Of a stretch of DNA of 64,000 nucleotides, positions 14,533 through 58,677 are shown one piece after another (within the stretch, counting starts at the first letter, position 1; the number at the start of each line of letters is the position of its first letter). A model generated the notes under the pieces. That model was not told where the DNA came from and made no database searches. It was given only the letters and a program-made list of their open reading frames with translations. Source of the stretch: an uncultured Sulfitobacter sp. (GTDB taxonomy: Bacteria; Pseudomonadota; Alphaproteobacteria; Rhodobacterales; Rhodobacteraceae). The position numbers and the translations under genes were made by a program. Location of the stretch: assembly GCA_905182645.1 (NCBI GenBank), contig CAJJCJ010000008.1, forward strand, positions 1 to 64,000. The letters are read 5' to 3'.

Positions 14533-15305
14533 ATTGAAAAGAACGCCTCTGTCAGGATCAGGTTGGCCACAAGGATCAACACTGCCGCTGCAACGACGGC
14601 CCCTTTGGTGGCGGCCCCAACGCCGCTGGCGCCGCGTCCCGCTGCCATGCCATAGTAGCAGCCCATGAGTGCGGCGATGAAGCCAAATACCGCCCCTTTG
14701 ACCAATGACGATATGACGTCGCGCTGTTCTAGAAAATCGACGGTGTTTTGCAGATATGATGCTGCGTTAAAGCCCAGACGCTCGGTTCCAACAATATAGC
14801 CGCCCAAAATGCCGATAATGTCGCCGACACCAACGAGCGCGGGCATGACGAGAGTCGCCGCTAGAACACGCGGCACTGTGAGGTATTTCATGGGGTGGGT
14901 CGATAGGGTGACGAGTGCGTCGATTTGTTCGGTTACCTTCATCGTCGCGATTTCAGCGGCAATGGAGGATGTGACGCGGGCGGCAATCATCAGCCCGACA
15001 AGCACTGGTCCCAGTTCACGCACCATGCCGATAGCGACGATTTGCGGCACCACGGCCTCGGCTGAGAAACGCGCACCACCGGAATAGATTTGCAATGCAA
15101 GAGCGCCGCCGGTGAACAGGGCCGTAAGCCCAACAACTGGCAGCGATAGGAACCCGATTTGGAATAATGCTTGGCCAAACTCGCGCCCGTAAAACGGCTG
15201 CGTGGCCAGATGGCGAAACGTGCTAGCAGTGAACAAGGCGATCCGCCCAACGGTTGTAAATCCGCCAAGGGTCGCAGCCCCGATCATCGCCAGTAGGCGT
15301 TTCAT
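14529..15305 (-). CDS. MlaE-type ABC transporter permease
   Basis: A 258-residue permease with about five membrane spans and the MlaE core ([43 protein letters not shown]). I place the start at 15305 (ATGAAACGC), overlapping the true end of alr by ATGA. A continuous frame of 615 codons extends from here back through the first part of alr, but only because alr carries a one-base insertion; the fusion is almost certainly artificial. Together with the adjacent ATPase it forms a lipid ABC transporter. Confidence 0.9.
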
Positions 15306-16340
15306 CCGCCGCGTGTCCGGCGTGTATAGCGCCCACCAAGTGACGTCAGGATTTCGTAGCCAATTGTGCCGGACGCGTCTGCCAGTTGATCCACTGTTTG
15401 TTGATCCCCAAGCAGGGTCAACGCATGCGGGTCTTCTTTGAGGTCGGTCACATCCACGGTCAGTAAGTCCATCGACACGCGGCCAATAAGTGGCACGGGT
15501 TCGTTGCCGTAAAATAGCGTGGCCTTGTCTGACATCGACCGGATCAAGCCGTCTGCGTAGCCCGCTGATAGGGTCGCGATCTCGGCTTGGGCGCGTGGCC
15601 TGCCAGCTATTGGCGTAGCCCACGACTTCGCCCGCGTCCAAGTGCCGAATTTGCACAACGGGCAGGTCCATTTGCACGACTGGGCGCGCTTTTGTGAATG
15701 GCAGCCCGCCGTAAAGCCCGATACCGGGCCGGCACAGATCAAAGTGATAGTCTTTGCCCAGCAAAATTCCACCCGTGGCCGCGAGCGACCGTGGCACGGT
15801 GATCCCGTCGGTCATTTTATGGAATACATCAAGTTGATAGGCATTCATTGGGTGATCAGGCTCGTCGGCACAAGCCAGATGGGACATCACAACTGTTGGC
15901 CGCTGCGCCAAAGCGATTTCCGCGACCGCTGCCCATTCATCCCATTCCATGCCAAGCCGGTTCATACCCGTATCAAGCTGAATGCCAAACGGATGGCCGG
16001 GCAGGGCGTCAAAATGACGAGTAACTTGTTCAAGCGAATTCAAGATCGGCGTCAGGCCTAAATCACCAATTGTGTCGGTGTCACCGCGCATGTGGCCTGC
16101 AAATACCGAAACCTCTGGGCCGGGACCAACGGCGTTGCGCACAGCACCGCCTTCTTCGGCGACGGCCACAAAGAACCGGCGTGCGCCTGCTTTTGCCAAT
16201 GCCTTGGCCACGGTCGCGGCCCCAAGGCCGTATCCGTCTGCTTTGACAACGGCCGCCGTTTCCACGGAGGTCATTTTATCCAAGGCCCGCCAGTTTGCGA
16301 TAATGGCGTCGAGGTCGATCGTGATATGTCCGGTGCTCAT
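15302..16340 (-). pseudogene. alr: Alanine racemase interrupted by a one-base frameshift
   Basis: PLP enzyme that makes D-alanine for peptidoglycan. From 16340 the frame reads a good Alr: [11 protein letters not shown] holds the PLP-linked lysine, and [18 protein letters not shown] and [13 protein letters not shown] follow. After [14 protein letters not shown] the frame breaks. The missing C-terminal domain ([12 protein letters not shown], then [16 protein letters not shown]) continues in another frame to a TGA at 15302. Removing one base from the CC pair opposite 15584-15585 restores a normal 345-residue enzyme. Sequencing error is the simplest explanation. If real, D-alanine supply would depend on another racemase. 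Confidence 0.88.
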
Positions 16341-16810
16341 GACGATTCTTTTGGCAGCACAGGCGCTTTGCGGCAAGAGGAAGAATAGGGCTGAAACTGC
16401 AAATTTGGCGTTCCAGCCTTAAATTTGCGGATTTTCGCGCAATTGTTCCGTGAGCATTAGACGACACCGACGCGCCTATTACGAAAGGTCATAGGGCAAT
16501 TGGAAATGCCACGTGATCAACGCCCGTTTGGGAGTGGCTGGTTGTCGTTTGCTTCTCGGTCTTTCGCTTGCATGAATGATTGAATTCAACCGCCATCATC
16601 GCGCCAAATGAAGTCTGGCGATCCCAAAAGTAGAACAATACGTCCTCTCAGAGAACTTTGTTGATCACCTTTTGAACCTAAGAAACCCTTTGTCCAACTT
16701 CTCAATTTGTTGAAAATTTGATAGAAAAAGCAATGTTGTACTGAATTTCTTTTATCTGGGTGGAAGTCTTTAGGAAAGTTGCACGATTATTTTAAAGGGA
16801 TATTATTTTT
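16341..16810. other. Noncoding AT-rich stretch between alr and the Hint gene
   Basis: About 470 bases with no supported gene. Base composition turns markedly AT-rich from about 16,560 to the start of the Hint-fold gene, including several runs of A and T. It probably contains the promoters of the divergent genes on either side, but I could not pick a convincing -35/-10 pair. No repeat or tRNA-like structure seen. Confidence 0.5.
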
Positions 16811-17371
16811 ATGTTACAAGAAGAAATTTTCAGCTCCGCCTTGCTGCAAAGTGTTGCAGCAAAATGTAAAACAAATGCAGTTTTGGCAGAAAAACCGTCT
16901 GTCGCAACAAAAAAACACTCCTGGTTTATTCCTGGCTTTGGGGCCGGTGCACGTGTTGCGACTTCGTTTGGTCATGTTCCGGTTGAAGCATTGCGTTGTC
17001 GTGATGAGATTAGGACGCGCGAAGGATGCTTTCTCAGGATTCAACACATTGACACAATTCGGCTTGATCGTCGTTTTCTGCTAACTCACCCTGACGCTCA
17101 GCCAATTGCGATCCCCAAAAATGGGTTGGGACCTGATGTCCCAAACCAAAACATCCTTGTGTCCGGTTCCCAGAAGATTGGATCGCCGAAACGATTCGAT
17201 CAGATTTCCGGTCGTATGGCATCAGAATACGTCGGCCAGACTAACATCATGCGCAAGAACCACGGGTATTTCACCTACTATGTTTTTCATTGCGGCGAAC
17301 CTTGCACTGCAAGTGTCGATGGCCTCTGGGTGGATTTGGACCCTGATGCTCTTGGTAAAATCGAGGAGTGA
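16811..17371 (+). CDS. Divergent Hint-domain (Hedgehog/intein-fold) protein lacking the catalytic cysteine
   Basis: A 186-residue protein. Residues 40-75 (IPGFGAGARVATSF, then HVPVEALRCRDEIRTREG) match the opening of bacterial Hint_2 domains, where CFxxGTxIxT is followed by a VExLxxGDxVxTxDG pattern. The nucleophilic cysteine position is occupied by other residues (HSWFIPGF). The later LVSxQHR-like block is LVSGSQKIG, with the histidine lost. It therefore looks like a Hint fold that cannot self-splice or self-cleave. Start ATG is preceded by AAAGGGA with generous spacing. It sits in an AT-rich, IS-scarred pocket, suggesting acquisition by transfer. Function unknown. Confidence 0.7.
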   Translation: MLQEEIFSSALLQSVAAKCKTNAVLAEKPSVATKKHSWFIPGFGAGARVATSFGHVPVEALRCRDEIRTREGCFLRIQHIDTIRLDRRFLLTHPDAQPIAIPKNGLGPDVPNQNILVSGSQKIGSPKRFDQISGRMASEYVGQTNIMRKNHGYFTYYVFHCGEPCTASVDGLWVDLDPDALGKIEE

Positions 17372-17655
17372 TCACAAGTAATCTGTGGTGGCTTTGCGAT
17401 TTTGGATTGGGCACTAATATGAATTCAGCGTTATCGCGCTGAGGTTGCCTTAGTAATTCGACCAGTTTGCAGCGGGGTGTGGGTGGATCAGGGGTTTGTT
17501 TAGGCTGCTGATCTCAATGGTTCCATGTTTCTGGGAGCGCCGAATTCTTTCAGTTATCCGGATGTCGATCCAACGCCCCATGCCATCAATTACCGGATGG
17601 TGATCTGTAAAATTACTGAGAGGCATGGACATCTGCACGTTCGTATCCTTCAGTG
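17372..17655. other. Noncoding stretch between the Hint gene and the IS remnant
   Basis: About 280 bases with no recognised gene. A short minus-strand open frame (63 codons) lies here but shows no family resemblance. Likely decayed flank of the neighbouring insertion sequence. Confidence 0.4.
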
Positions 17656-17686
17656 GGTAATCCCCTCAATTTTACTGGGGCTCAGC
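17656..17686 (-). repeat. Probable terminal inverted repeat end of an IS3-family element
   Basis: Just past the end of the transposase remnant, the minus strand reads CTGAGCCCCAGTAAAATTG and then GGGGATTACCC. This placement, a few bases after the transposase stop, and the sequence style (CAGTAAAA..GGGGATTACC) match the right end of IS3-family elements common in Rhodobacterales. The matching left end was not found, so the element is incomplete. Confidence 0.55.
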
Positions 17687-17694
17687 TGTAAAAT

Positions 17695-17935
17695 TTACGC
17701 GGCTGTTTTCAGTTTCATTGCGGGTGTTATGCCGCCGATGCCCGCGTCCATTGGGCTTGAACCAATTGCGCCCAAATCACGCTGGGTCTCTTAATGTTGT
17801 AAGTCCAGAGCCATTCTGTCGCCTGGTTTTGGGCCTGCTCAATCGTTTCAAAGATGTATTGGCTCAACCGTTTGCCGCGAAGGGTGCGGTTGTATCGCTC
17901 GATTGAAGTGGTCCGGATTTTTAGGGCAGTATTGT
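17695..17935 (-). pseudogene. Remnant of an IS3-family transposase (OrfB C-terminus)
   Basis: On the minus strand one frame reads TTSIERYNRTLRGKRLSQY, then IFETIEQAQNQATEWLWTYN. A second frame then gives GIGGITPAMKLKTAA and a stop. Together these are the well-known C-terminus of IS3-family OrfB integrase-type transposases (IERYNRT...WTYNxxRPNxGIGGITPAMKL). About 35 unrelated bases and a frame change separate the two parts. The N-terminal two thirds, with the DDE catalytic residues, and OrfA are missing. It is a dead fragment. Confidence 0.8.
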
Positions 17936-18384
17936 CGCTTAACTAAGATTCACCCTGCCTCAGGGTACAGCAACTATTTCAGAGAACAACATTGGCGCTG
18001 TCTGCGACATCGCGGTGAGTGTGCTTGTGATCATCAGACGTCATCAATGTGACCGCCCCATGTTTTTTCAGCCGACGAATATATATCGTGGCGCTGCCAT
18101 TATTCGTGCAGGCGCTCGCCATCCTCGCCGTGACTGATTTCGTGCAATGTTAGATGCCCCGCGCGTTTTGCATGATCCCGTTCTGATGGCAGTTCCGTTC
18201 GATCCATCATTCTAGAGAAAGATGGATTGGCTGTTTGGCACGCACCACTTGCCCTAAATTGAGTGGCCGAAAAATACGGTGTTGTCGTGGATCGTCTTCC
18301 AAAGAGCTATTGGAACCAGTTCAAATACCCGTTTATGAAAAAGAAACGCAAGTCAGCCGTAAAGTAAACGCGGCCTATCGATGT
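17936..18384. other. Unassigned, probably decayed sequence before dnaB
   Basis: About 450 bases with no intact gene. Short open frames occur on both strands. One on the + strand around 18,260-18,345 reads KYGVVVDRLPKSYWNQF, then KYPFMKKKRKSAVK, which looks protein-like but matches no family I know. It may be remains of a further mobile element next to the IS3 fragment. Confidence 0.4.
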
Positions 18385-19878: not shown

Positions 19879-20004
19879 CAGTCCATCCCATCGTCCACAC
19901 ATGCGTCATACAAAGGTCCGCAGGTGGCGGCAAATTGTATGTTTCTGTGGATAAGAGGCTGCATAGCACATGTTGGGGGTATTTGCAGCATATGCACAAT
20001 ATTA

Positions 20005-20031
20005 GCCCGCAGACTGGCTGAGTCTGCGGGC
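20005..20031 (-). terminator. Hairpin downstream of pyrE
   Basis: A perfect 11-bp stem (GCCCGCAGACT with AGTCTGCGGGC) around a 5-base loop lies between the pyrE stop and the dnaB start on the minus strand. The T-rich side is on the plus-strand reading, and only a weak AT stretch follows on the minus strand, so termination efficiency is uncertain. Confidence 0.6.
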
Positions 20032-20052
20032 AAACTTGTAATTTTATTTGGT

Positions 20053-20730: not shown

Positions 20731-20745
20731 TGCTTGCAGCTTTCG

Positions 20746-22534: not shown

Positions 22535-22549
22535 GCTGATTATATATTA

Positions 22550-30891: not shown

Positions 30892-32307
30892 TCAGAATGC
30901 CTCTTTTTGAGTGTGATTTTCGTATAAGTTTTGCGTAAGTTTTGCATATGCCGCGTCGCGCGGTGCAAGACCAAGCAATGTCAGTGCCGGACCCGTCAGA
31001 TTTGCGTCTGACATTGTCGGTTCTAGCGTGCCAAGCGTGCAGGCAATGATGCGCTGATCGGCGCGGCTGACGTTCTCAATGATCGTGACGGGCGTGTCGG
31101 GTTTGGCCCCGTGCATCAGCAACCGCCCTTGGACAAAACGGGCAGATTTTTTGCCCATGTAAATTGCGACTACCTCGCCGTCTGCTGCAAGCGCTTTCCA
31201 ATCGTGATCGGCGTAGCCTTTTGTGTCGTGACCCGTGATCAGACGCACCTCAGAGTTCCGACCGCGTTTTGTCAGGCTTTGCCCGATGTTTGCGGCTGCC
31301 GCTGATGCGGCGGTGATACCGGGGATAATCTGGTAAGAAATACCAGCGGCAGTGACCGCTTCCATTTCTTCGTCCAGACGGCCAAAAACGGTCGGATCGC
31401 CTGCCTTAAGCCGCACGACGTGCGCACCGTTTAATGCGTGCTCGACGATCAGCGCATCAATGTCGGATTGGGCCATGGAGGTGGCGAATCCTTCTTTACC
31501 TGCGTCGATGATTGTCGCTTCACGGCGGGCGAGTTCCAAAATGTCGGCGGTCACAAGGCGGTCGTGGATGATGACGTCGGCCTTATCGATGGCTTGGCGG
31601 GCTTTCAGGGTCAACAGGTCCGGATCACCGGGGCCAGCGCCGACAAGATCAACATGACCTTCGGTTTGGGCGGTCATCACATGTTTATCCAACAGGGTCT
31701 CTAAGGTCGGGAGAATGCCCTTTTCACCCCGTTGGTTCATCGTGGAGGGGCCCACGTTGAAGTAGTATTCCGACCAGAATGTCCGACGTTTGGCGCCAAA
31801 TGGCAGCACGTCGACGGCGTGGCGGAACGTTTTACCGATACGGGCGAGTGTGCCCAAGGATGCGGGCAGTTTTGCTTCAAGGTCGGCCTTAATCGCGCGG
31901 GCCAGCACGGGGGCGGCCCCTTCGGTGCCAATCGCGATGGTGACAGGATCGCGATCGACGATTGCGGGGGTGATGAATTGGCTGTCCGCAAGATTGTCGA
32001 CGATGTTTACAAGCGCGCCCTCGGACGCGGCGATGGCGGCGGTGCGGGCGTCCTCAGTGGCGTCTTCGTTTGCGCCGTAGAAAAGCACGGCACCAATTGC
32101 ATCGCCGTGGCCCATCGCGTGATTTGTGAGGGTAAGTTTGCCCTGTGCAGCCCAGCGGTGGATTTCAGGGGCGGCGTTTTGCGCCAGAACGGTGATATGT
32201 GCTTCGGTTTTCATCAAAAGCCGCAACTTTGCCATGGCCGCATCGCCGCCGCCTGACACGATGATCCGGCGGCCAGAGACGGATAAGAAGATTGGAAAAT
32301 GTTTCAT
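30892..32307 (-). CDS. cysG: Siroheme synthase CysG (multifunctional)
   Basis: A 471-residue fusion that turns uroporphyrinogen III into siroheme. N-terminal precorrin-2 dehydrogenase/ferrochelatase: HFPIFLSVSGRRIIVSGGGDA is the NAD-binding start, and GTEGAAPVLARAIKADLEA follows. C-terminal SAM uroporphyrinogen-III methyltransferase: DLVGAGPGDPDLLTLKA, VVRLKAGDPTVFGRLDEE, and PGITAASAAAAN. Siroheme is the cofactor of the adjacent sulfite reductase. First gene of the cys operon and divergent from the Lrp-type regulator. Confidence 0.94.
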   Translation of the reverse strand: MKHFPIFLSVSGRRIIVSGGGDAAMAKLRLLMKTEAHITVLAQNAAPEIHRWAAQGKLTLTNHAMGHGDAIGAVLFYGANEDATEDARTAAIAASEGALVNIVDNLADSQFITPAIVDRDPVTIAIGTEGAAPVLARAIKADLEAKLPASLGTLARIGKTFRHAVDVLPFGAKRRTFWSEYYFNVGPSTMNQRGEKGILPTLETLLDKHVMTAQTEGHVDLVGAGPGDPDLLTLKARQAIDKADVIIHDRLVTADILELARREATIIDAGKEGFATSMAQSDIDALIVEHALNGAHVVRLKAGDPTVFGRLDEEMEAVTAAGISYQIIPGITAASAAAANIGQSLTKRGRNSEVRLITGHDTKGYADHDWKALAADGEVVAIYMGKKSARFVQGRLLMHGAKPDTPVTIIENVSRADQRIIACTLGTLEPTMSDANLTGPALTLLGLAPRDAAYAKLTQNLYENHTQKEAF

Positions 32308-37940: not shown

Positions 37941-39357
37941 ATGGATGTAGTACTTTTATTTGGCATGATCGTTGGATTGTTATTGATTGGTGTCCCGATT
38001 GCGGTGTCGCTTGGTCTGTCGTCGATCGTCTTTTTGCTGGCGTTTTCTGACACGTCTTTGGCGTCGGTCGCCCAGTCGTTATATCAAGCGATGGCGGGGC
38101 ATTACACGCTGCTGGCGATCCCGTTCTTTGTTTTGGCGTCGACGTTCATGTCCACTGGCGGTGTCGCCAGACGGATCATTCGGTTTTCAATCGCCTGTGT
38201 TGGCCATTTCCAAGGTGGCTTGGCGATTGCAGGTGTGCTGGCATGTATGATGTTTGCGGCTTTGTCCGGCTCGTCGCCAGCAACGGTGGTTGCCATTGGG
38301 TCCATCGTGATCGCGGCGATGCGACAGGTCGGATACACCAAGGAATTCGCTGCTGGCGTGATTTGTAACGCAGGCACGTTGGGTATTTTGATCCCGCCGT
38401 CTATTGTCATGGTGGTCTATGCATCTGCAACGGATGTGTCGGTCGGTAGGATGTTCTTGGCCGGCGTCATTCCAGGTATCTTGGCCGGTACAATGCTGAT
38501 GATCACCATCTATATCATGGCCCGTATCAAGAATATGCCCAAGGGCGAATGGCAGGGCTGGGGCGAGATTTTCGCCAGCTTCCGCGACGCCGCTTGGGGT
38601 CTGTTGCTGATCGTGATCATCATGGGCGGCATTTATGGCCATCCTTGGCTGACGTTTGATGGTTTGGTCTGGAAACCGGGTGCGTTTACCCCGACAGAGG
38701 CCGCTGCTGTCGCTGCTGTCTATGCGTTCATCGTGGCCACGTTTATTTACCGCGACATGGGCCCATTAGCAGGTGTTGATGGTGCGCCGCCCAAGTCGTT
38801 GCTGCAAAATCCGCAGGTTTTGATCACGAGTTGGTTCCACGCGGATACCCGCAATTCCTTGTTTGAAGGTGGTAAATTGACAGTGACGTTGATGTTTATC
38901 ATCGCCAACGCGCTGATCCTAAAGCATGTTTTGACCGATGAGCAGATCCCACAGCATATTGCTGAGGCGATGTTGTCAGCGGGCATGGGCCCGGTCATGT
39001 TCCTGATTGTCGTCAACGTGATTTTGTTGATCGGCGGTCAGTTCATGGAGCCGTCTGGTCTGATCGTGATCGTTGCCCCGCTTGGTGTTTCCGATTGCGA
39101 TATCGCTGGGCATTGATCCGATCCATCTGGGCATCATCATGGTGGTCAACATGGAGATCGGGATGATCACGCCGCCAGTTGGATTGAACTTGTTCGTTAC
39201 CTCTGGCGTGGCAGGCATGCCGATGATGGCTGTTGTCCGCGCCGCGTTGCCGTTCTTGGCTGTGTTGTTCGTGTTCTTGATTTTGATCACGTATATTCCG
39301 TGGCTGTCGACGTATCTGCCAACGAAGTTCATGGGGCCGGAGATCGTTTTGAACTAA
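37941..39357 (+). pseudogene. dctM: TRAP transporter large permease DctM, interrupted by a frameshift
   Basis: Polytopic transporter (about 471 residues if restored) that moves dicarboxylates with sodium. The frame is intact from MDVVLLFGMIVGLLLIGVPI to SGLIVIVAPL, then shifts at 39084-39085, where CTTGGTG should read CTTGTG. The correct end continues in the +1 frame (VFPIAISLGIDPIHLG), runs through NMEIGMITPPVGLNLFV and stops at 39357. The restored part is as conserved as the rest, so a one-base insertion error in the sequence is likely. If real, the last three or so spans would be lost and uptake broken. Confidence 0.9.
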
Positions 39358-39395
39358 AGGGGCGCTGCCGCGCATTGCTTTTTTAAGATGTTGAG

Positions 39396-39429
39396 AGGCG
39401 ACGCATCATATTGGGTGCGTCGCCTTTTT
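39396..39429 (+). terminator. Intrinsic terminator after dctPQM
   Basis: A perfect 10-bp stem AGGCGACGCA / TGCGTCGCCT, loop of 10, followed by a run of five T. Strong + strand terminator between dctM and the convergent tpiA. Confidence 0.85.
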
Positions 39430-39468
39430 GCTGTGATCTAAAGATACATATTTAAGCTCTGAAAAAGA

Positions 39469-40197
39469 TTAGCTTGCCGCCAAGGCCGTGATGATTGGGA
39501 TGAAATCGGCGGCTTTGAGGCTGGCTCCGCCGACAAGTGCGCCGTCGACGTCTGGGATGGCGAAAATTTCCGTGGCGTTGCTGGCTTTTACGGAGCCGCC
39601 GTAGAGGACGCGAAAATCTGCGCCGTCGGTGAACCGTTCGGTCAGGCGCGCGCGGATGTGCGCATGGACTTGTGCGATTTGGTCGTTGGTCGGGACTTTG
39701 CCGGTGCCGATCGCCCAGACGGGCTCGTAGGCGATGACGGTGTTTGCGGCTGTTGCCGTATCGGGAACAGAACCCGCAAGCTGGGTTTCGATGACGGTCA
39801 GGGTTTTGTTGGTTTCGCGCTCTGACAAGGTTTCGCCGATACAGACCACGGCCGTTAGGTTTGCCGCATAGGCCGCGGTCGTTTTGGCGTTGATCATCGC
39901 GTCTGTTTCAGCGTGATCTGTGCGTCGCTCGGAGTGGCCCGTGAGCGTGTAGGTCGCCCCTGTGTCGGCCAGTTGATCGGCGCTGATGTCACCTGTGTGT
40001 GCGCCGCTGGTGTTGGCGTGGCAATCTTGGCCGCCGACAGACATCGGCAGGTTAGCCATTTGAGCCAGCAGCGTGGTGGGCGGGCAGATTAGGACATCGA
40101 CGCCGTTTGCATCATGGGCGGCGATGGCCGCGGCTTGGGTCATTGCGGCGGCAAGTCCATTCATTTTCCAGTTTCCGGCGGCGAGTTTGCGGCGCAT
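39469..40197 (-). CDS. tpiA: Triosephosphate isomerase
   Basis: A 242-residue glycolytic TIM barrel. RRKLAAGNWKMNG holds the N-terminal Asn/Lys, TLTGHSERR the catalytic His, and VIAYEPVWAIGTGKV the catalytic Glu; VLYGGSVKASNATEI and GALVGGASLKAADF form the phosphate-binding end. A single gene, convergent with dctM. Confidence 0.94.
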   Translation of the reverse strand: MRRKLAAGNWKMNGLAAAMTQAAAIAAHDANGVDVLICPPTTLLAQMANLPMSVGGQDCHANTSGAHTGDISADQLADTGATYTLTGHSERRTDHAETDAMINAKTTAAYAANLTAVVCIGETLSERETNKTLTVIETQLAGSVPDTATAANTVIAYEPVWAIGTGKVPTNDQIAQVHAHIRARLTERFTDGADFRVLYGGSVKASNATEIFAIPDVDGALVGGASLKAADFIPIITALAAS

Positions 40198-40307
40198 GAT
40201 CTATCCTTTTTAATTGCAGTTGCTTTGGTAGGTAGCAAGAACCTTGGGGGGTTGCAAAGCGTGTGGGTGTGCCCCATGCGTCCGAACATGTTTCAACGAG
40301 AGCTGCG

Positions 40308-41221
40308 ATGATACCACGTATTGATGCCACTGCACTGTTGGTTGGTGACGCGGACGCGATGAAGTTGGCGGCGCAGGCGGCGACGGGTGTCGGGTTTTTG
40401 ACAGTGTATAACACGCCGCTGTCGGGGCCCTATGTGCAGGCGGTCATTGACGGCTATGGCGCGTTTTTTCGCTCTGCCAGCGTCTGAGAAAGTCAACGTA
40501 TGACATGGCCGCGACGGGATCAAACCGTGGTTGGGGCGGGGCGGGGTCTGAGCAGGTCGATCCGGATGCCAACCCTGACTATAAGCAGGTGTTTGATTGT
40601 GGTTTGACGCTTGTTGAGGATGATCCGATTGCGGATGAAAACCTGTCGTTTTATGCGCCAAACCTGTGGCCTGATAAGCCCGAAGGTTTTGCCGAGAGTT
40701 TGCAGGACTATTACCTGCAAAGCACTGATTTTGCATTAGATTTATTATGTGCGATTGTGGGTTCGGTTGGCGAGGACGGGAGCTTTTTTCGCGATAAGTT
40801 CACCCGTCCGATGGCATTGCTGCGCGGAAATTTTTACCCTGAGCGGCCTGCTTGGGCGACGGATAAGGATTTTGGGATCGCGACCCATACCGACTATGGT
40901 TGTTTGACGTTACTGGCAACGGATGGGTCACCGGGGTTGGAGGTGCGCAAGCTTGGCGGCGGCTGGATACCAGTGTCAGCGCCTCCGGGTGAGTTCGTGA
41001 TTAACTTTGGTGATATGTTGGAGATTTGGACTGGCGGGAAAATCAAGGCGACGCCGCACCGTGTGATCGGTACATCTGCCGAGCGGATTTCAGTGCCGTT
41101 GTTTTTCAATCCCAACCATGATGCCAATGTGGCCCCGATGGGGTCAGCTGGAACGATGCAAGCTTGGGCGCATTTAAAGGCGCGGTATGATGCGACATAT
41201 GTGCATTTGCAGGCGGATTGA
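40308..41221 (+). pseudogene. Isopenicillin-N-synthase-family 2OG-Fe(II) oxygenase with two frameshifts
   Basis: Starts MIPRIDATALLVGDADAMKL and reads well to VIDGYGAFF. The six-T run at 40464-40469 appears one base too long: with five T the frame continues FFALPASEKVNV. Just after, GTATGACATG seems to lack two bases, as GTA TAT GAC ATG would give VYDMAATGSNRGW. Beyond it the gene is intact, with the metal/cofactor residues in order: HTDYG (H..D), TPHRV and RISVPLFF (R..S). Restored length is about 304 residues, normal for the family. Substrate unknown. Both lesions fit sequencing error. Confidence 0.8.
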
Positions 41222-41250
41222 TTGGCAGGGCTAAGTCGCTGAAAAGGCGG

Positions 41251-41613
41251 TTATTTTGCGCCGATTGTCTCGTCGAATTTGATCGACTCGCCGCAGCCGC
41301 AGGCGTCAACGACGTTGGGATTGCGGAACTTAAAACCGGATTCCAGTAGCGATGTTTCATAGTCAATTTCAGTGCCGAACAGGAACATCTGCGCCATTGG
41401 CGCAATCATAACGCGGGCGCCGTCGATCTCCACTACTTCGTCCATGCTGTTGATTTCGCTCACGTATTCCATGGTGTATTCCATGCCTGCACAGCCACCT
41501 TTTTTGACGCCGATGCGCAACCCTTGTGACCCATCTTTGGCCATCAGCTTGGCGATTTGTGCCGCTGCTTTGCCAGTGATTGAGACTGCTTGCTTGCCTG
41601 GGATGCCGAACAT
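41251..41613 (-). CDS. Iron-sulfur cluster assembly accessory protein (SufA/IscA/ErpA type)
   Basis: A 120-residue A-type carrier. The three cluster-binding cysteines are present: GGCAGMEY and, at the C-terminus, ACGCGESIKF. HesB-like core GLRIGVKKGGCAGMEYTM. Delivers Fe-S clusters to target proteins. It follows the DUF59-type assembly gene on the same strand, as at suf loci, though sufBCDS are not here. Confidence 0.9.
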   Translation of the reverse strand: MFGIPGKQAVSITGKAAAQIAKLMAKDGSQGLRIGVKKGGCAGMEYTMEYVSEINSMDEVVEIDGARVMIAPMAQMFLFGTEIDYETSLLESGFKFRNPNVVDACGCGESIKFDETIGAK

Positions 41614-41690
41614 TGGAATTCTCCTTACTTCCTATTAAGATAGGAAGTCTATGCGCATCGCGCAAGGGTGATGGTAGTGCGTTGTAATTA

Positions 41691-42054
41691 CTACATAAAG
41701 CCGAGTTCGAGGCGGGCTTCGTCGGACATCATTTCCATGCCCCATTGTGGTTCGAAGGTCATTTCGACGTCGACGTGTTTGACGCCGGGCAATGGTTCAA
41801 TCGCGTCAGCAACCCAACCGGGCATTTCGCCCGCGACGGGGCATCCGGGTGCGGTGAGCGTCATCGTCACATTTACCGCGTTATCTTCGCCGATGTTGAT
41901 GGTGTAGATCAGCCCAAGATCGTAAATATTCACTGGAATTTCAGGGTCATAGATCGACTGGCACGCTGCCACGATGTCCTCGTAGAGCGGGTGATCGGTG
42001 CTCGAGGGCGCGATCAATGGAGTGCCTTCAACGGGGGGGCTTTGCGTCGGTCAT
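41691..42054 (-). CDS. SUF-type DUF59/MIP18 family Fe-S assembly protein (SufT-like), N-terminus frameshifted
   Basis: From TTG at 42017 the frame reads PLYEDIVAACQSIYDPEIPV, NIYDLGLIYTINI, then TLTAPGCPVAGEMP with the conserved cysteine and EMTFEPQW. This is the MIP18/DUF59 fold used in Fe-S protein maturation. The real start is probably the ATG at 42054 (MTDAKPP): seven C/G bases at 42033-42039 should be six, which joins KPPVEGTPLIAPSS to the rest, giving about 120 residues. Directly upstream of the A-type carrier gene. Confidence 0.8.
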
Positions 42055-42291
42055 GGGATCATCCTGCTATTCCTGAGTATTCATATAGGGATTGCAACGG
42101 GGGCCGTAAAGACCGGTATGTTTCGTATACGTTTTGCATAAGTTTTGCATATGCCGTTTTCATTGCCGCGGTGTAGCCAATTGTGGCTAAGCCGTGTTGG
42201 TAGACGTCAAAATATTGCCAAATAACCGATTTATAAAGATTCGCAGGTTCACAGCTAAATTGTGAACCCCACATCGGACGGGATCGCGTAC

Positions 42292-43353
42292 ATGGCAAGT
42301 CTTAGTTTTTTCGCACGCGGCGATGGATCATCCGCAAATAACGCGGCATTGAATGTCGATAGTAAGTCTCAGCAGGCCACTGTTGAGATTACGTTCGAGA
42401 GCGGTGCGACCGGCGATATTGTCCTTGATGGTAATGGCGGCGACGTTGACCCAGATACAACTGTGACGATCGACGGTGTGTCGTATAATTTCATCCTCGA
42501 GCAAACGGGCGATCTGCCGATTGGAAATGGCAAGGTGCCGGATGTTCTTGAAGGCAGTCAGGTTACTGTGATTTCGTATATCGACCTTGCTGGTAATTAT
42601 CAGCGGTTGTTTTTCATGACCGATGGCAGTGGTACATTTGAATTGATGGACAGTTTTGGAAATGGCGCGGTGGCGCTGACAAATGTTGATCCGGCTCCAA
42701 CTGCGGTTTATATTTGCTTTTGCGGTGGCACCGACGTTTTGACCCCATCTGGTTACCGCAAGGTCGAAACCCTAAAAGTGGGCGATCTAGTTGTTACGGA
42801 TACCGGTGCTGCAGTCCCGATTTTGTGGTGCGGGCATTCGCGCGCATCCGTGGCTGACATGCGCGCCGATCCATCCCGCCGCCCTGTGCGCATTATGGCT
42901 GATGCAATCGCGCCCGGTGTTCCGTTCGCGGATTTGTCGGTTTCAGCGCAGCATCGCGTGGTTATTGAGGGTGTTTGGGCCGAGCTGTATTTTGCTGAAC
43001 CGACTGTCATGGTGCCAGCGAAGTATCTTGTGGGGACGTTGGCGCAGACCGATATGCCAAGCGAAGATGTAGTCTATCATCATATTTTGTTGGAAGAGCA
43101 TGAGGTGCTGATCACAAATGGCCTTATGACAGAGAGTTTTCAGCCGTCGTTGCGATCATACAACGGGATCTCGCCGCAGATGCGCCGATCACTGTCTGAC
43201 ACGGTGTCAAAAGAGCGGTTGCAGTCATTGTTCCGTCGCAAAGATGCAATGATTGCGTTGAAAAAGGCCGACGCACAGGTGCTGGTTGCGAAAATGGTTG
43301 GTGCGATGTGCCAATTAACGGCTGATGATGCTGGATCTTTAGCCGCGGCATAA
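42292..43353 (+). CDS. Hint-domain protein with intact CFCGGT site
   Basis: A 353-residue protein. Start MASLSFFARGDG at 42292; a GTG at 42262 in frame is an alternative. Residues 1-135 are a polar, Asp/Gly-rich, beta-type region without a signal peptide. The Hint_2 domain opens at ICFCGGTDVLTPSG (C142/C144), with VETLKVGDLVVTDTG and then LSVSAQHRVVIEG (H221) as the conserved blocks. Self-processing by thioester chemistry is plausible. Such N-terminal/Hint fusions are common in Rhodobacterales and are thought to be exported; function unproven. Confidence 0.8.
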   Translation: MASLSFFARGDGSSANNAALNVDSKSQQATVEITFESGATGDIVLDGNGGDVDPDTTVTIDGVSYNFILEQTGDLPIGNGKVPDVLEGSQVTVISYIDLAGNYQRLFFMTDGSGTFELMDSFGNGAVALTNVDPAPTAVYICFCGGTDVLTPSGYRKVETLKVGDLVVTDTGAAVPILWCGHSRASVADMRADPSRRPVRIMADAIAPGVPFADLSVSAQHRVVIEGVWAELYFAEPTVMVPAKYLVGTLAQTDMPSEDVVYHHILLEEHEVLITNGLMTESFQPSLRSYNGISPQMRRSLSDTVSKERLQSLFRRKDAMIALKKADAQVLVAKMVGAMCQLTADDAGSLAAA

Positions 43354-43487
43354 TGACGTTTGCGCTTAGGCGCGGCGGCGATGGAGCTACACAAACTGGC
43401 TTGAGAATTTCCGACTATGTTGCGCACCGGAAAGGCTGGGCGCTTGATGTAATCGCTCTTTTACTTTTTTTCAAAATCCGGCACTAG

Positions 43488-44624
<1,137 letters not shown>

Positions 44625-44675
44625 CCTGCGTGGGGTTTGCGGTAGGCTTGCTAAAAAACTAGTGAGGTGCAGGTG

Positions 44676-45469
44676 ATGAAAGTATTTTTCTTGGCAATTG
44701 TCAGGTGAACGCGATGCGCGGGCTTTGCCGCGAGATGTTTCCGGCGATGAAGGCCAGTTTTCAGACGATCACGCCGTATTGGGGAACGTTTGACGAAGAC
44801 GAAACCCGCCGCCAGCTGGCCGAGGCCGACGTCGTTGTTAGTCAGGCGATTGCCAACGATACCACTACGTTTAACGCGAATGATGTCCGCGCGAGCGCGA
44901 CTGGCGACGTCATTTTTGTGCCATATGTTTATATTGACGGGATCGCGTCGCCTGAGATTATTGCGTCCAAGGGCAAGACAGTCATTCGCGGCGCAGACCT
45001 GTTGCTTAAGGGGCAAGAGGGCCGCAAACCGATCCATATTTTCAACGACTACTGCGATGGGGCGATTGATATGCAATGCGAGCAGCGGGTGATTGGGTCG
45101 ATTGACCGTATCCGCGAAAAAGAAGAGGCCGACTGCGATCTGACGATCTCTGATTATTTGACCGATACCTGGCGCAAGCAGCCGACGCTTTATGGCATAA
45201 ACCACCCGACTCAGCCTGTTGTGTTCGAGATGTTCCGCAGGCTGTGCGTAAAAACCGGCTGGGATTATAATCCGGACCATCAAAATGATCCTATTGCTTG
45301 GGGCCGTCGTGCGCTTCCGGCGTCAACGCGCAGTTTTACACCCCATGATGCCGCGTCCATGCAAATTAAATATCCGTGTGACACACATTGGTATGGGTCG
45401 GGTTACAAGCTGTTAAACCTTGCGCTTAAGGCGCAAGAGCGTGAGGCAGCAGAGGCTCAAGCCAGCTAA
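44676..45469 (+). CDS. WcbI-family polysaccharide biosynthesis protein, N-terminus frameshifted
   Basis: The main frame (from ATG 44705, about 254 residues) reads REMFPAMKASFQTITPYWGT, ADVVVSQAIANDTTTF and VIFVPYVYIDGIA, typical of the WcbI fold. The true start is likely ATG 44676 with ribosome site AGGTG: MKVFFLGNCQVNAMRG is restored if the GG at 44693-44694 is GGG. As written, that frame stops after ten codons. WcbI proteins are acetyltransferase-like enzymes of capsule synthesis; no capsule cluster is nearby. Confidence 0.75.
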
Positions 45470-48049: not shown

Positions 48050-48271
48050 CTTCCGGTTGTTTGAATTTGAATGGTGCGTCGCAAAAGTGGCGCGCCATTT
48101 TTGGTTGTTCTGTTGAACGATTGATCGCTTTGACAGGGTACCGCCTCGCCAAGTTGGCGATGTTGTTTAGGTCGGCGCAACAATAAAGAAATTTCTAAAG
48201 ATGATATGTGGGCAATCGGGCGCGACTAACTTAGCGTTAATGAAAGTTCATATTTGACCGGAGAGTGGCCC

Positions 48272-48682
48272 ATGGCAACGAAACCAAAATCATCATCCAA
48301 GACCGTGAAGCTTGCGACGATTGCACCCGATCCGGTTATTGCGCCATTGGCGGACAAAATTGTGGTGAAAGCAGGGATCGCGTCTCCTGCTGTGCTTGTT
48401 CCTAAGGGTGAAATGATTAAAAAACCCGAATTTATCGACCGTGTGGTGGACCGGATAGACGTTAAAAGACGCGATGCAAAGCCTGCGATTGACGCGGCTT
48501 TGGCTATTTTAGCCGAGGCGTTGGTCAATGGCGAAGAGCTGAACTTGCCACCAATGGGCAAGCTGCGCGTCGTCAAAATGAAGGACGTTGGCGATCGAGT
48601 GAAGGTTCTAACGCTCAAGTTACGCACGATGAAAGACGGCGCAGGCCTTGGCGCGAGCCCATCAGATAACGACGACGATTGA
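48272..48682 (+). CDS. HU-family DNA-binding protein with an N-terminal extension
   Basis: A 136-residue protein; the ATG at 48272 has GGAGAG upstream, better than the in-frame start at 48254. The C-terminal 90 residues follow the HU/IHF plan (IKKPEFIDRVVDRIDVKRRD, AIDAALAILAEALVNGEEL, PMGKLRVVKM). The first 45 residues are an added Lys/Pro/Val-rich segment, and the usual DNA-intercalating beta-arm is short. A nucleoid-associated role is likely but specificity unknown. Confidence 0.8.
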   Translation: MATKPKSSSKTVKLATIAPDPVIAPLADKIVVKAGIASPAVLVPKGEMIKKPEFIDRVVDRIDVKRRDAKPAIDAALAILAEALVNGEELNLPPMGKLRVVKMKDVGDRVKVLTLKLRTMKDGAGLGASPSDNDDD

Positions 48683-48978
48683 TGGGGCGCCCTGCCGCAG
48701 TCGTGGTCCAATTGGTTGATGACCAGTTGGTCCGTGTCACGCGGTTTGAGTTTACGGCAGGCGCAGAAACTGGCTGGCACACGCATGTGATGGACTATGT
48801 CATTACGGCTGTGACGGATTGCCAAATGCAGTTGGAAGATCCAGACGGACAGGTCCGGAATGTGTTGGTGCCCGCAGGGGCGGCGTATCGCCGCGACGCG
48901 GGTGTGCTGCATAACCTCATAAATACAGGCGCTGTCCCTATGGTTTTTGTTGAAGTTGAAATTAGATCACAAGGCTAG
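48682..48978 (+). CDS. Small cupin-domain protein
   Basis: A 98-residue single-domain cupin. WHTHVMDYVITAV holds the first metal-binding His pair, and VLHNLINTGAVPMVFVEVE the second block. Its ATG overlaps the stop of the HU-like gene (TGATG), which suggests coupled translation, and four bases separate it from the phosphatase. Substrate unknown. Confidence 0.75.
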   Translation: MGRPAAVVVQLVDDQLVRVTRFEFTAGAETGWHTHVMDYVITAVTDCQMQLEDPDGQVRNVLVPAGAAYRRDAGVLHNLINTGAVPMVFVEVEIRSQG

Positions 48979-52969: not shown

Positions 52970-53092
52970 CGACTAGTCCGCGCAAATGTGATTGACAGTG
53001 GGCAATAACGCGCCAGAAATGATGCCCTGCGGCTTTGACCATCGGTGACGTTCGGCTTATAAGCGCCACTGTATCTATAGGGGTTCGCAGCA

Positions 53093-55612
53093 TTGCTACG
53101 CTTTATTTTGTCATTCTTTGGCGGCATTTTTTCGATGTTGACGCTTGGCCTCGCGATGATGGCTCTGACCATTGGCGCGGTATTCCATATGTATGGCCGC
53201 GATTTGCCGTCCTACGAGGTGCTGTCGCGCTATACGCCTAAGACCATAAGCCGGATTTATTCGTCTGAGGGCAATATCATTGATGAATTCGCGACCGAGC
53301 GTCGTTTGTTCACGCCTTCCGAGGAAATCCCTGATCTTGTGAAGCAGGCGTTTATTTCTGCGGAAGATAAGAATTTTTACACCCATGATGGATATGATTT
53401 GCGCGGGATGGCTGCGGCGTTTGTTGATGCCGTGCAATCACGCGGCGAGGACTTGCGTGGTGCATCAACGATCACACAGCAGGTCACCAAGAATTTCCTG
53501 TTGGATGGATCGCGCACCGCAGAGCGTAAAATTCGTGAATTGATCCTTGCGCCGCGCCTAGAGGCGTCATTGGGCAAAGAGGGCGTGTTGGAGCTGTATC
53601 TTAACGAGATTGACCTTGGTGTCCGTTCGTTTGGTGTGACGGCTGCGGCGCAAAGTTATTTCAACAAGCCGTTGTCTGATTTGTCCCCAGCCGAGGCCGC
53701 GTTTTTGGCGGTACATCCCAAGGCGCCGTATAGTTATCACCCTGTAAAAAACCGCGATGCTGCGATGGCGCGCCGCGATTTCATTCTGCGTGAGATGTTT
53801 GAAAACGGGTATATTGATCAGGCCGCCTATGATGTGGCCAAAGCCGATACGCTTTTGACGGTGCAGAACGGTGATTTTGAATCGTACCGTACTCAGCGCC
53901 CGTCGCGCGATTATTTCACCGATCAAATCCGACGTCAGTTGAGCGAAGAATTTGGCGAAGACGAGTTCTTTAATGGCGGCTTGTCTATCCGTGCGACGAT
54001 CGACCCTGAAATGCAGGTTGAAGCGGCGCATGCGTTGCAGCAGGCGCTGGAAGATTACGACCGTGGCGTCGGTGAATGGCGCGGGACCGGTAAAACCATT
54101 GAGGTGGCAGCGCTTTCCGATGAGGCCGCTTGGCGTGCCGCTTTGGACGATCTTGTTGTTGCCCGCGACGTGACCTTGGGAAGCCGTTGGTTTCCTGCTG
54201 TCGTTCTAGGCGTTGCTGAGAACCAGCTAAATATTGGCATTGAAGGCGTTGATATCACGGAGGATGAACCTCAGATTATTACACGCGACGATATCAAATG
54301 GATAAGCGGCAATTTCTTTGACAATTTCACCCCCGGTGACGTTGTGCATGTACGCCGCATGACAGCTGATGGCGATGATACGGCTGTTGGTTGGACATTG
54401 CGTCAGGTACCAGAAGTGCAGGGCGGCTTTATGGCGATGGACGTCAACACCGGTCGTGTGATCGCGATGCAGGGCGGGTTTTCGTACCAGAATTCGGTGT
54501 TCAACCGCGCCACTCAGGCCCAGCGACAGCCGGGATCTGCGTTTAAGCCATTCGTCTATGCGGCCGCCTTGGATAGTGGATATTCCCCTGCCACGATCGT
54601 GGTCGATAGCCCGATTGAGATTAACACTCCGCAAGGTATTTGGCGCCCGAAGAACTCGTCCAATCAGTTTTATGGCCCAACCCCGTTGCGCACAGGGATC
54701 GAGCAATCGCGTAACCTGATGACTGTGCGTTTGGCCAAAGAGATTGGGATTGATACTGTTGCGCTCTATGCCGAGAAATTTGGTGTTTATGATAACATGA
54801 ACCGCGTTTTGGCCGCTGCATTGGGGTCCGATGAGACCACGTTGTTTAAGGTTGTGTCCGCCTATGCCATGTTCGCCAATGGTGGGGAGCGCGTGGAGCC
54901 GACGTTGGTTGACCGCGTCCAAGACCGTTACGGCCAGACCGTGTTCCGCCACGATCAACGCACCTGTGATGACTGTGGTGACCTGGATTTGCCTGAGGGC
55001 CAAGCCCCGAGCATTCAGTCAAATCGCCAACGCGTGATGAACAAAATTACGGCCTATCAATTGACGTCGATGATGGAAGGCGTTGTGAAACGCGGATCAG
55101 CAAGTCGGACCGTGAATTTGTCGGTGCCTATCGCGGGTAAAACGGGGACGACCAATGATGCCAAGGACGTTTGGTTTGTTGGTTTTTCGAGCAACATTGT
55201 CGCTGGCTGCTATATCGGTTTTGACAACCCAAGGTCACTTGGGCGTGGCGCGTTTGGCGGCTCGCTTTGTGGTCCGGTTTTCAACACGTTCATGACGCAG
55301 GCCATTCAAAAATACGGTGGCGGTAAGTTCAATGTGCCGGAGGACTGTCAGTTCATTAAGATCGACCGCTTTAGCGGCGCCCGTTTGCCCGACAGTGCCA
55401 GCGGCGACAATATCGTTGCCGAATGTTTCCGTCCCGGTGAAGAGCCAATCTTTGGTATTACCTTTGATGGTGGGTTTGGCATTGCTGATGATTTGCCAAT
55501 ATTTGATGAGGTTCCGCTTGCGTCCCGCGAGGTTACCACGTCGAGCGGCGGCACGGCGAAAGTTGGCCCCAAGGCCACGTTTGGCGCGTTGTCTTCGGGT
55601 GGTCTTTACTAA
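53093..55612 (+). CDS. Penicillin-binding protein 1A, TTG start
   Basis: Bifunctional peptidoglycan synthase, 839 residues. The TTG at 53093 gives the conserved MLRFILSFFGGIFSML membrane anchor; no ATG fits. Glycosyltransferase GT51: AEDKNFYTHDGYD and ASTITQQVTKNFLLD. Transpeptidase: QRQPGSAFKPFVYAAA (active Ser in SxxK), SRN region and IAGKTGTTNDAKD (KTGT). Adjacent to the amidase, with prfB downstream. Confidence 0.95.
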   Translation: MLRFILSFFGGIFSMLTLGLAMMALTIGAVFHMYGRDLPSYEVLSRYTPKTISRIYSSEGNIIDEFATERRLFTPSEEIPDLVKQAFISAEDKNFYTHDGYDLRGMAAAFVDAVQSRGEDLRGASTITQQVTKNFLLDGSRTAERKIRELILAPRLEASLGKEGVLELYLNEIDLGVRSFGVTAAAQSYFNKPLSDLSPAEAAFLAVHPKAPYSYHPVKNRDAAMARRDFILREMFENGYIDQAAYDVAKADTLLTVQNGDFESYRTQRPSRDYFTDQIRRQLSEEFGEDEFFNGGLSIRATIDPEMQVEAAHALQQALEDYDRGVGEWRGTGKTIEVAALSDEAAWRAALDDLVVARDVTLGSRWFPAVVLGVAENQLNIGIEGVDITEDEPQIITRDDIKWISGNFFDNFTPGDVVHVRRMTADGDDTAVGWTLRQVPEVQGGFMAMDVNTGRVIAMQGGFSYQNSVFNRATQAQRQPGSAFKPFVYAAALDSGYSPATIVVDSPIEINTPQGIWRPKNSSNQFYGPTPLRTGIEQSRNLMTVRLAKEIGIDTVALYAEKFGVYDNMNRVLAAALGSDETTLFKVVSAYAMFANGGERVEPTLVDRVQDRYGQTVFRHDQRTCDDCGDLDLPEGQAPSIQSNRQRVMNKITAYQLTSMMEGVVKRGSASRTVNLSVPIAGKTGTTNDAKDVWFVGFSSNIVAGCYIGFDNPRSLGRGAFGGSLCGPVFNTFMTQAIQKYGGGKFNVPEDCQFIKIDRFSGARLPDSASGDNIVAECFRPGEEPIFGITFDGGFGIADDLPIFDEVPLASREVTTSSGGTAKVGPKATFGALSSGGLY

Positions 55613-55657
55613 GCGTGCTTGCTATGACCGCACAAACACATTCCAGATAGGTGCCCG

Positions 55658-56782
55658 ATGCGCGCAGAGACCCAAAACACCGTGGATGCGATTGAAAAAT
55701 CGCTTGGCTTATTGGCCCAGCGTTTGGACTATGAGACGGCTCCTTACCGGTTAGAAGAATTCAATGCCCGCGTTGAGGATCCGACGTTGTGGGATGATCC
55801 TGATGCCGCCCAAAAGCTAATGCGCAATCGTCAGATGTTGGTTGATGCTGTGGCGATTTACGAAGGTATCCGTCAGGATTTGGCAGATAACCTTGAGCTT
55901 ATTGAGATGGGCGAAATGGAAGACGACGCAGAAGTCGTGTCCGAGGCTGAGGCTGCGTTGACGACCCTTGGTGCATTGGCCGCCCAAAAAGAGCTGGAGG
56001 CTTTGCTGGATGGCGAGGCTGATGGCAATGATACATTCCTTGAGATCAACTCTGGCGCCGGTGGCACTGAGTCGTGTGATTGGGCCAATATGCTGGCCCG
56101 CATGTATGTCCGCTGGGCCGAGAAAAAGGGCTATAAGGTTGAATTGCAGTCCGAGACACCAGGCGAAGAGGCTGGGATCAAATCGGCGTCGTATAAGATT
56201 ACAGGCCAGAATGCCTATGGCTGGTTGAAGTCTGAGTCCGGCGTGCACCGTTTGGTCCGCATCAGTCCGTTTGATAGCGCCGCAAAGCGTCACACATCGT
56301 TTACGTCGATTAAGGTCTATCCGGTTGTGGACGATGACATTGATATTCAGGTCGAGGCAAAAGACATCCGTCTTGATACCTACCGGTCATCTGGTGCCGG
56401 TGGTCAGCACGTCAACACGACCGATTCAGCGGTCCGGATTACCCACTTTCCCACAGGCATTGTTGTGACCAGTTCCGAGAAATCCCAACACCAGAACCGC
56501 GATATTGCCATGAAGGCGCTAAAATCGCGGCTTTATCAGATCGAGCTGGATAAGCGGTCGTTGGTCGTCAATGAAGTCCACGAGAATGCAGGCGATGCGG
56601 GCTGGGGCAACCAGATCCGTAGTTACGTTTTGCAGCCCTATCAGATGGTCAAAGACCTGCGCACCAACCACGAGACGTCCGACACGAAGGGTGTGCTGGA
56701 CGGTGATTTGGATGGCTTTATGGCGGCTACGCTTGCGATGGCTGTGTCGGGTAAATCGCGTGCGGATGCCCAAGGCGAATAA
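55658..56782 (+). CDS. prfB: Peptide chain release factor 2 (RF2)
   Basis: Recognises UGA and UAA stops. 374 residues, one uninterrupted frame: unlike E. coli prfB there is no early in-frame UGA requiring programmed +1 frameshifting, as is common in this group. RISPFDSAAKRHTSF carries the SPF stop-recognition motif, and RSSGAGGQHVNTTDSAVR the catalytic GGQ. Confidence 0.95.
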   Translation: MRAETQNTVDAIEKSLGLLAQRLDYETAPYRLEEFNARVEDPTLWDDPDAAQKLMRNRQMLVDAVAIYEGIRQDLADNLELIEMGEMEDDAEVVSEAEAALTTLGALAAQKELEALLDGEADGNDTFLEINSGAGGTESCDWANMLARMYVRWAEKKGYKVELQSETPGEEAGIKSASYKITGQNAYGWLKSESGVHRLVRISPFDSAAKRHTSFTSIKVYPVVDDDIDIQVEAKDIRLDTYRSSGAGGQHVNTTDSAVRITHFPTGIVVTSSEKSQHQNRDIAMKALKSRLYQIELDKRSLVVNEVHENAGDAGWGNQIRSYVLQPYQMVKDLRTNHETSDTKGVLDGDLDGFMAATLAMAVSGKSRADAQGE

Positions 56783-56838
56783 GTGTTCCGGTATGCTTAG
56801 GAATCGCCAAGTTTTTCAAATGGGTAGTTTAACGTAAA

Positions 56839-56869
56839 AAGGGCGGACTAGGTTTCCCTGTCCGCCCTT
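56839..56869. terminator. Bidirectional terminator between prfB and the bactofilin gene
   Basis: AAGGGCGGAC pairs with GTCCGCCCTT around an 11-base loop, with A-rich sequence on one side. It lies between convergent genes and could serve both. Confidence 0.75.
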
Positions 56870-56892
56870 CCAAATACTGTCACCCAAAAGGT

Positions 56893-57381
56893 TTAGGCTT
56901 TTGGCTCTGGCATCTTGGCTTTGCCACCAGTGCCAGTTGTCAGCGGATCGTCTTGACGCTGCACGGAGCCTTCGAAGTGCGCACCGGATTCGATCGCGAT
57001 TGTCTTGTGGATGATGTCACCCTCAACACGCGCGGTTGATGTCAGGCGAACCTTAAGGCCACGTACACGGCCAATAACGCGGCCGTTGACAACAACGTCG
57101 TCGGCCATGACTTCACCCTTAACAGTGGCGCCTTCGCTGACTGTCAGCAGGTGCGCACGAATATCGCCTTCAACCTGACCTTCGATCTGGATGTCACCAG
57201 TCGTTTTCAGGTTGCCTGTGACCAACAGGTCAGAGGACAGCACGGATGGTGCTGGCTTTGCCTTGGGTGCGGCGGCTTTAAAATCAGGCGCAGGTGCGCT
57301 TGTTTTCGCAGGCATCGCAGGTGTGGTTGCTTTTTCACCGGCTTTTGGGCCGGGCTCATTGATTTTTGATTTAGAAAACAT
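56893..57381 (-). CDS. Bactofilin family cytoskeletal protein
   Basis: A 162-residue protein with an unstructured Lys/Pro/Ala-rich N-terminus, a DUF583 beta-helix core (LLVTGNLKTTGDIQIEGQVE, then GEVMADDVVVNGRVIGRVRG), and a proline-rich tail. Bactofilins polymerise without nucleotides and localise wall enzymes. It overlaps the M23 peptidase gene end by 11 bases, the widespread bactofilin-M23 pairing. Confidence 0.93.
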   Translation of the reverse strand: MFSKSKINEPGPKAGEKATTPAMPAKTSAPAPDFKAAAPKAKPAPSVLSSDLLVTGNLKTTGDIQIEGQVEGDIRAHLLTVSEGATVKGEVMADDVVVNGRVIGRVRGLKVRLTSTARVEGDIIHKTIAIESGAHFEGSVQRQDDPLTTGTGGKAKMPEPKA

Positions 57382-58677
57382 CTTGTCCAGCTCTTATGTA
57401 AATCATGGGGTTAACAGGCGCGCCACCGACGCGGACTTCATAATGCAAATGCGATCCTGTGGATCGACCTGAGTTACCCATATCACCAATTCGCTGCCCG
57501 CGCGAGACCCTTTGACCAACTGAAATCTTAATAGAGTTCAGGTGGGCGTATCGTGTCTCGATGCCGAATTCGTGTTGGATTTTGATTAGGCGGCCATAAC
57601 CGGACGACCAGCCAGCTTTCACAACAACACCGTCAGCGGTCGCGTAAATTGGGGTCCCGATTGGGGCGGCAAAGTCGGTTCCGGCGTGCAGGCGACCCCA
57701 GCGTGGGCCAAAACCAGAGGTAAACGGAAGCTGGCTTTCACGGGGGTATCAAATGGCGCGCGTTCTGCTGCAATCCGGTAAAGGTTAATCCGGTCCATAC
57801 GGTCAAGGATACCGTTTGCGCGGGCTGTATCAGGATCAGGTGCGCCGCCTTTGGTCGAAAACGACATTGGTGCCAGCGGGCCACCTGTGCCGGAATAACC
57901 ACGGCGCACGGCAGACAATAGGCTATCTGGGTTCAGGCCTGCTTGGCGGAACATTTTATCAAGCGGTTCTACAGAGACGAGCATCGCTTCTTCGAGTTGG
58001 CGGAATATATCGTCGTTCTTTTCTTCTAATAATCTGAGGCGCAGTTCCATTTCGGCGGCTTGGTCCAGCGCGAAAACGGCGTCTGCGGCGATCATGTCCC
58101 GTTCGGCAGCGGTATCTGCCAAGGCGCTGGCAAGCAGATCAACTGTGCCGCTGGCCTCTTGGGACAGGGCGGTCGCGGCGGCATCTGCGCCATCGGCGGA
58201 CAGTGCAGCGACCTGATCGCGCGCTGCTTCGCGGTCTTTCATGGTGTTGCGTAACGTGGCCTGCACGACTTCGAGCCCTGTTTCCAGTTCGCGACGCTTG
58301 TCTTCTGTCGATAAAAGTTCTGTCTGCATGATCGAGATTTGATCGAGCGCTGAGGTGAACCGACGCTGCGCTGCAACGGCCTCTTCTGCGCGAATGTCGC
58401 GTTCGATTGACAGAGAATTCAGTCGTTCTTCGTAAATCATTTGGTCACGCGCGGCTTGCGCGCGGAAGTTTCCGGCCCCGATGCTGTCCATCAACAAGAT
58501 AGCCGTCGCGATGATCGTCCAGCCGACAACGATGATGCCGCCGGTCCACGCCACAAGCTGCGTTTCTGATGTAAGCCGGATGAACCGTGTCTCGGCGTCC
58601 GAGCGAAGAAAAAGCCGTTTCTCGGGGAAACGGCCTTCTAGCCAAGCGTGAACGCGTGCTGTCAATCGTGATCGCAA
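57371..58677 (-). pseudogene. DUF5930-type M23 peptidoglycan endopeptidase, interrupted by a frameshift
   Basis: The first 1 kb encodes a membrane anchor (around VAWTGGIIVVGWTIIATAIL) and a long coiled coil, ending at DTPVKASFR. There a run of three T/A bases (57722-57724) should be four: with the extra base the frame continues FTSGFGPRWG, then HAGTDFAAPIG, YAHLNSIKI and HLHYEVRVGG, giving an intact zinc site (HxxxD, HxH). Restored length is about 435 residues. I use the TTG at 58677, with AGGA 8 bases upstream. Its end overlaps the bactofilin start. Confidence 0.85.

Follow-up and report, generated by a model that had tools for sequence, protein, structure and literature searches.

Six conserved genes within the opening 64 kb of contig C8, from an uncultured Sulfitobacter genome (this 64,000-nt stretch is hereafter the window), are interrupted by small frameshifts, which raises the question of whether the genes are broken in the organism or only in its assembly. 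The genome, G000, is a draft of 2,674,666 bases in 15 contigs, with a completeness of 84.08 and a contamination of 0.22. Seven breaks had been predicted in these six genes, and alignment with relatives placed every one of them in the deposited sequence, within about 10 nt of its predicted position. The affected genes, and the evidence by which each break was located, are as follows.

15302..16382, minus strand: alr (alanine racemase), broken near 15582-15586 (DNA alignments, relatives' proteins, Pfam).
37941..39357, plus strand: dctM (TRAP transporter large permease), broken near 39080-39085 (alignments, proteins, Pfam).
40269..41221, plus strand: IPNS-like 2OG-Fe(II) oxygenase gene, broken twice, near 40464-40469 and near 40489-40493 (alignments, proteins, Pfam).
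41691..42054, minus strand: sufT-like Fe-S assembly gene, broken near 42033-42039 (DNA alignments).
44676..45469, plus strand: wcbI-like gene, broken near 44684-44694 (DNA alignments).
57371..58725, minus strand: DUF5930/M23 peptidase gene, broken near 57722-57729 (alignments, proteins, Pfam).
14529..16376, minus strand: open frame of 615 aa joining the alr N domain to the adjacent MlaE permease gene, a by-product of the alr break (Pfam).

At the alr, dctM, IPNS-like and M23 breaks, the match between the window and relatives' proteins switches from one frame to another. The sufT-like break lies some 20 nt into the gene (the copy in relative G027 is a TIGR02945 member) and the wcbI-like break only a few codons past the start; because both are too close to the gene start for a two-frame protein test, they rest on DNA alignments. 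Pfam searches showed what the other breaks do to the products. Ala_racemase_N and Ala_racemase_C fall in separate frames of alr, and the 615-aa frame carries Ala_racemase_N at residues 20-226 and MlaE at 402-609, such that an annotator could mistake it for an alanine racemase-MlaE fusion protein. In the dctM piece the match to the DctM profile stops at position 339 of 413, an oxygenase piece retains only half of DIOX_N, and the break in the M23 gene removes the M23 domain and leaves DUF5930 without it. One detail of the original prediction needed correction: the two-base change proposed at a single site of the oxygenase gene is instead, relative to G035 and G027, a pair of single-base changes of frame separated by about 29 nt.

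The window also contains, at 30928-30950 and 42120-42153, a dispersed repeat of about 43 bp made of 11-bp units near GTTTTGCATAA. With positions 37941-45469 as the query, it gave about 19 short matches in G000, about 30 in G035 and fewer in G027. In C8, C1 and part of C5, 10 of 13 overlapping matches were intergenic by simple ORF calls, and the repeat is possibly a binding site.

Comparison with close relatives had been proposed as a check on the breaks. Among named records, with the best 80 loci retained from a longer list, the lon gene has its best matches in marine Rhodobacteraceae. By lon, for which a match was found in 55 of the 56 same-genus genomes examined (G000 counted in), the nearest to G000 are G035 (93%) and G027 (88%). 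Contig C59 of G027 is collinear with C8 across its first 143 kb, of which about 134 kb aligns. None of the seven window breaks is shared: the frame is kept throughout in both G035 and G027, and the other aligning relatives, among the matches listed (at most eight per site), are also frame-intact. We then compared the proteins of other relatives, under identical strict rules, with C8 and with the collinear C59. The 115,607 nt of C8 yielded 11 places (20 rows), and the 123,166 nt of C59 yielded 2 (2 rows). Setting aside disagreements over the 5' ends of ORF calls (at C8 13791, 45647 and 50516, and at the two places on C59) left 8 places in C8 and 0 in C59; a looser version of the test gave 34 rows against 13. 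The strict test found no events in the stretches of C1, C2 and C5 sampled first (42,407 nt under G027 proteins and 52,390 nt under G035 proteins), and the relatives themselves yielded one event apiece, G035 over 51,015 nt and G027 over 51,620 nt. The relatives are therefore not wholly free of breaks, and G000 is affected non-uniformly.

Along the remainder of C8, alignment with G027 revealed further breaks: in lpd at 69.07 kb, in a holin-associated muramidase gene at 97.29 kb (a longer deletion), in a competence-protein homologue at 104.85 kb, in a DAO-family gene at 134.4 and 134.7 kb (with weak support from a third genome) and in a Na/H exchanger gene at 138.4 kb. Furthermore, tyrS, encoding tyrosyl-tRNA synthetase, is broken twice, at 140.5 and 141.25 kb. 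The cell needs this gene. It is present as one copy each in G027, G035, G030 and G038, and in G000 we found pieces of a single locus in different frames, which the G030 protein also matches. The sole Ala_racemase_C match in G000 is the broken alr; either alr or tyrS may have a second copy that this incomplete assembly lacks.

Breaks were found on several contigs, with several relatives as the reference for C8 and C5 and G027 alone as the reference for C1. Wider sampling of C1 and C5 uncovered a dense patch on C5, where ten private single-base insertions and no deletions fall within 625 nt of one gene (C5:83747-84371). This gene is open over 348-350 aa in G035, G027, G014, G038 and G028 and over at most 132 aa in G000; across 1054 aligned columns it has 61 private substitutions in G000 and 42 in G035. 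In this wider comparison, which took in C8 as well, we relied on 24 of the 32 interior rows of G000 (11 on C8, 10 on C5 and 3 on C1), leaving out eight that are close to an ORF start or fall in ORFs whose coding signal is weak or variable. G027 had eight interior rows, four of which mirror events in G000 and four of which lie less than 300 nt from an ORF start (three with a weak coding signal). Three large PF00133-domain genes are open in G000 over 870, 1011 and 1037 aa, which tells against a high uniform error rate.

Real decay would be expected to relax constraint. The original prediction held that protein-level conservation is equally good on both sides of each break. In the differences from G027, third-position bias persists to either side of the breaks; two stretches, of 21 and 24 nt, were too short for a verdict. 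For branch counts we used a three-way set of 83 genes from C8, C1, C2 and C5 in G000, G035 and G027. The broken window genes carried 16 nonsynonymous and 149 synonymous private changes (five of the six genes, wcbI not being in the table), compared with 286 and 2133 for the G000 branch over the whole set. Neither N/S in these five genes nor third-position bias gave any sign of relaxed selection in the broken window genes. Elsewhere in the window, a fast-changing gene at 48226-48912 has 12 nonsynonymous and 9 synonymous private G000 changes in 140 codons; a search for its Pfam family found none.

The window also holds a gene that has truly decayed.

16473..18364, plus strand: relic of a gene for a fatty-acid hydroxylase, in which stops, lost segments and an interruption of about 1.5 kb are seen.

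Its counterpart in G035 is open over 383 aa and matches FA_hydroxylase. The interruption contains an open frame of 186 aa with a Hint_2 domain (16811-17371). The relic illustrates the expectation that true decay brings other lesions, since its stops, lost stretches and interruption are unlike anything at the seven breaks.

That G000 does hold real decay lends something to the idea that the seven breaks are very recent genuine loss-of-function mutations in the strain, too young to have gathered other lesions. The N/S ratio on the G000 branch (286/2133, 0.134) is also slightly above that of G035 (192/1864, 0.103), yet it is below that of G027 (507/3473, 0.146). Recent loss would have to accommodate the two breaks in tyrS, for which no second copy was detected, and the constraint retained by the broken window genes. 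Furthermore, neutral decay would not be expected to produce ten insertions and no deletions in 625 nt while adding few substitutions. We therefore regard recent loss as very unlikely.

We consider it highly probable, from comparison of the deposited sequences, that the breaks are single- and two-base indel errors in the draft consensus, dense in patches, and that in the living cells the genes are very probably intact. We favor artefact over decay because the breaks are private to G000, recur on other contigs, strike the only detected tyrS and come with no relaxed selection. The preference for artefact in the original prediction is thus strongly supported, above all by the privacy of the breaks, the constraint kept around them and the twofold breakage of the sole tyrS detected. 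The breaks are ordinary and not a biological feature. Gene losses, fusions such as the alr-MlaE frame, and pathway gaps in the G000 assembly are consequently not to be trusted at face value, and indel errors may depress its 84% completeness score.

As to the kind of error, the original prediction placed the breaks mostly at short homopolymers and blamed a sequencing platform prone to homopolymer errors. The first part is weakly borne out: runs of at least 5 lie within 3 nt of three of the seven window sites (background 3.6%, P = 0.0015), whereas runs of at least 3 were found at only five of the seven, against a background of 42% (P = 0.12). The runs at the three sites are of 5 to 7 identical bases. 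None of the seven further C8 sites has a run of at least 5 within 3 nt, and three of 14 exceeds chance (P = 0.013). Homopolymers thus contribute, but a platform with homopolymer errors is not well supported as the specific cause: 11 of the 14 small C8 breaks lie away from runs of at least 5, insertions are in excess and the breaks are clustered. Changes in homopolymer length thus do not make up most of the indels at the 14 C8 sites.

The excess of insertions is 22 to 6 deletions among small frame-breaking events (P = 0.004), in a tally compiled by hand that leaves out the longer deletion at C8 97.29 kb. For the C1 events and the one at C5 98.08 kb in this tally, G027 was the sole reference, and two near C8 134 kb are weakly supported by a third genome. 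Without the C5 burst gene the counts are 12 and 6, which is not significant (P = 0.24). The clustering is seen in the spacing of the 14 C8 sites, with seven gaps of less than 3 kb where 3.3 were expected (P = 0.013). A uniform error rate is contradicted by this clustering and by the absence of strict events in the first C1, C2 and C5 stretches. Errors at methylation motifs were also rejected: no GANTC lies within about 12 nt of any of the 14 breaks, and GATC lies near three of them, against a background of 13%.

The homopolymers of 5 to 7 bases at three sites might also suggest that programmed frameshifting or some other recoding reads through the breaks. However, the frameshift sites are not conserved, none of the relatives among the matches listed having a break, the sequence context varies from site to site and the genes struck are unrelated housekeeping genes, so that we think recoding exceedingly improbable. 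The same holds for its boldest extension, in which the breaks would be real, the lineage would undergo bursts of single-base insertion (as in the ten in 625 nt) that recoding tolerates, and tyrS would work despite its two breaks; we can hardly credit it.

A different sort of artefact would arise if the consensus combined co-occurring strains, the assembler stitching variants together and breaking frames at the joins. Such a mixture would be in keeping with the patchiness of the breaks and with the confinement of the C5 burst to one stretch. Coding variants would, however, mostly preserve the frame and add substitutions, and within 25 nt of the 14 C8 breaks G000-private substitutions occupied 31 of 554 positions (0.056, against a background of 0.051), which is not a clear excess. 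A set of five window breaks leaned higher, with 23 of 300 positions within 30 nt against 0.045. Mixed strains therefore seem to us a slender prospect. On the same figures (0.056 and 0.051), substitution errors around the breaks, which we had entertained as an accompaniment, were without clear support. The C5 gene departs from the usual balance, with ten insertions to 61 private substitutions: across the three-way set, private substitutions and isolated 1-2-nt indels stood at 3486:15 in G000, 2987:7 in G035 and 6039:18 in G027, that is, more than 200 substitutions per indel in all three genomes.

To return to indel errors in the consensus, their type looks more like that of a locally poor consensus. 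Sequencing, assembly or polishing would be their source, and the reads involved were probably long ones with thin coverage or poor polishing in places. What would fit the observations best is a long-read consensus of low depth or with its polishing left incomplete.

Errors of this general kind have been described before. In the part of Arumugam et al. 2019 (PMC6469205) that we draw on here, erroneous frame-shifts in long-read metagenome contigs are reported to harm completeness scores and annotation, at 6 per kb before polishing and 1.2 per kb once short reads had been used to polish the contigs. C8 resembles those contigs in its scattered frame-breaking indels and differs in their frequency, with 8 strict breaks in 115,607 nt (about 0.07 per kb), and in its dense patches. 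The portion of the Kastor report (PMC12007338) used here describes mostly homopolymer deletions in one long-read bacterial assembly; the likeness lies in single-base indels that split conserved genes and can be detected against relatives, whereas G000 has an excess of insertions and most C8 sites lie away from runs of at least 5. Homopolymer-associated deletions are likewise described for nanopore data in the part of PMC6478738 used here, and the homopolymer-deletion pattern of these last two sources, as given there, is not the main pattern in G000. Pseudogenes formed by recent frameshifts share with the seven breaks an interrupted reading frame; here, in contrast, constraint is intact on both sides, the sole detected copies of housekeeping genes are struck and no further lesions accompany the breaks.
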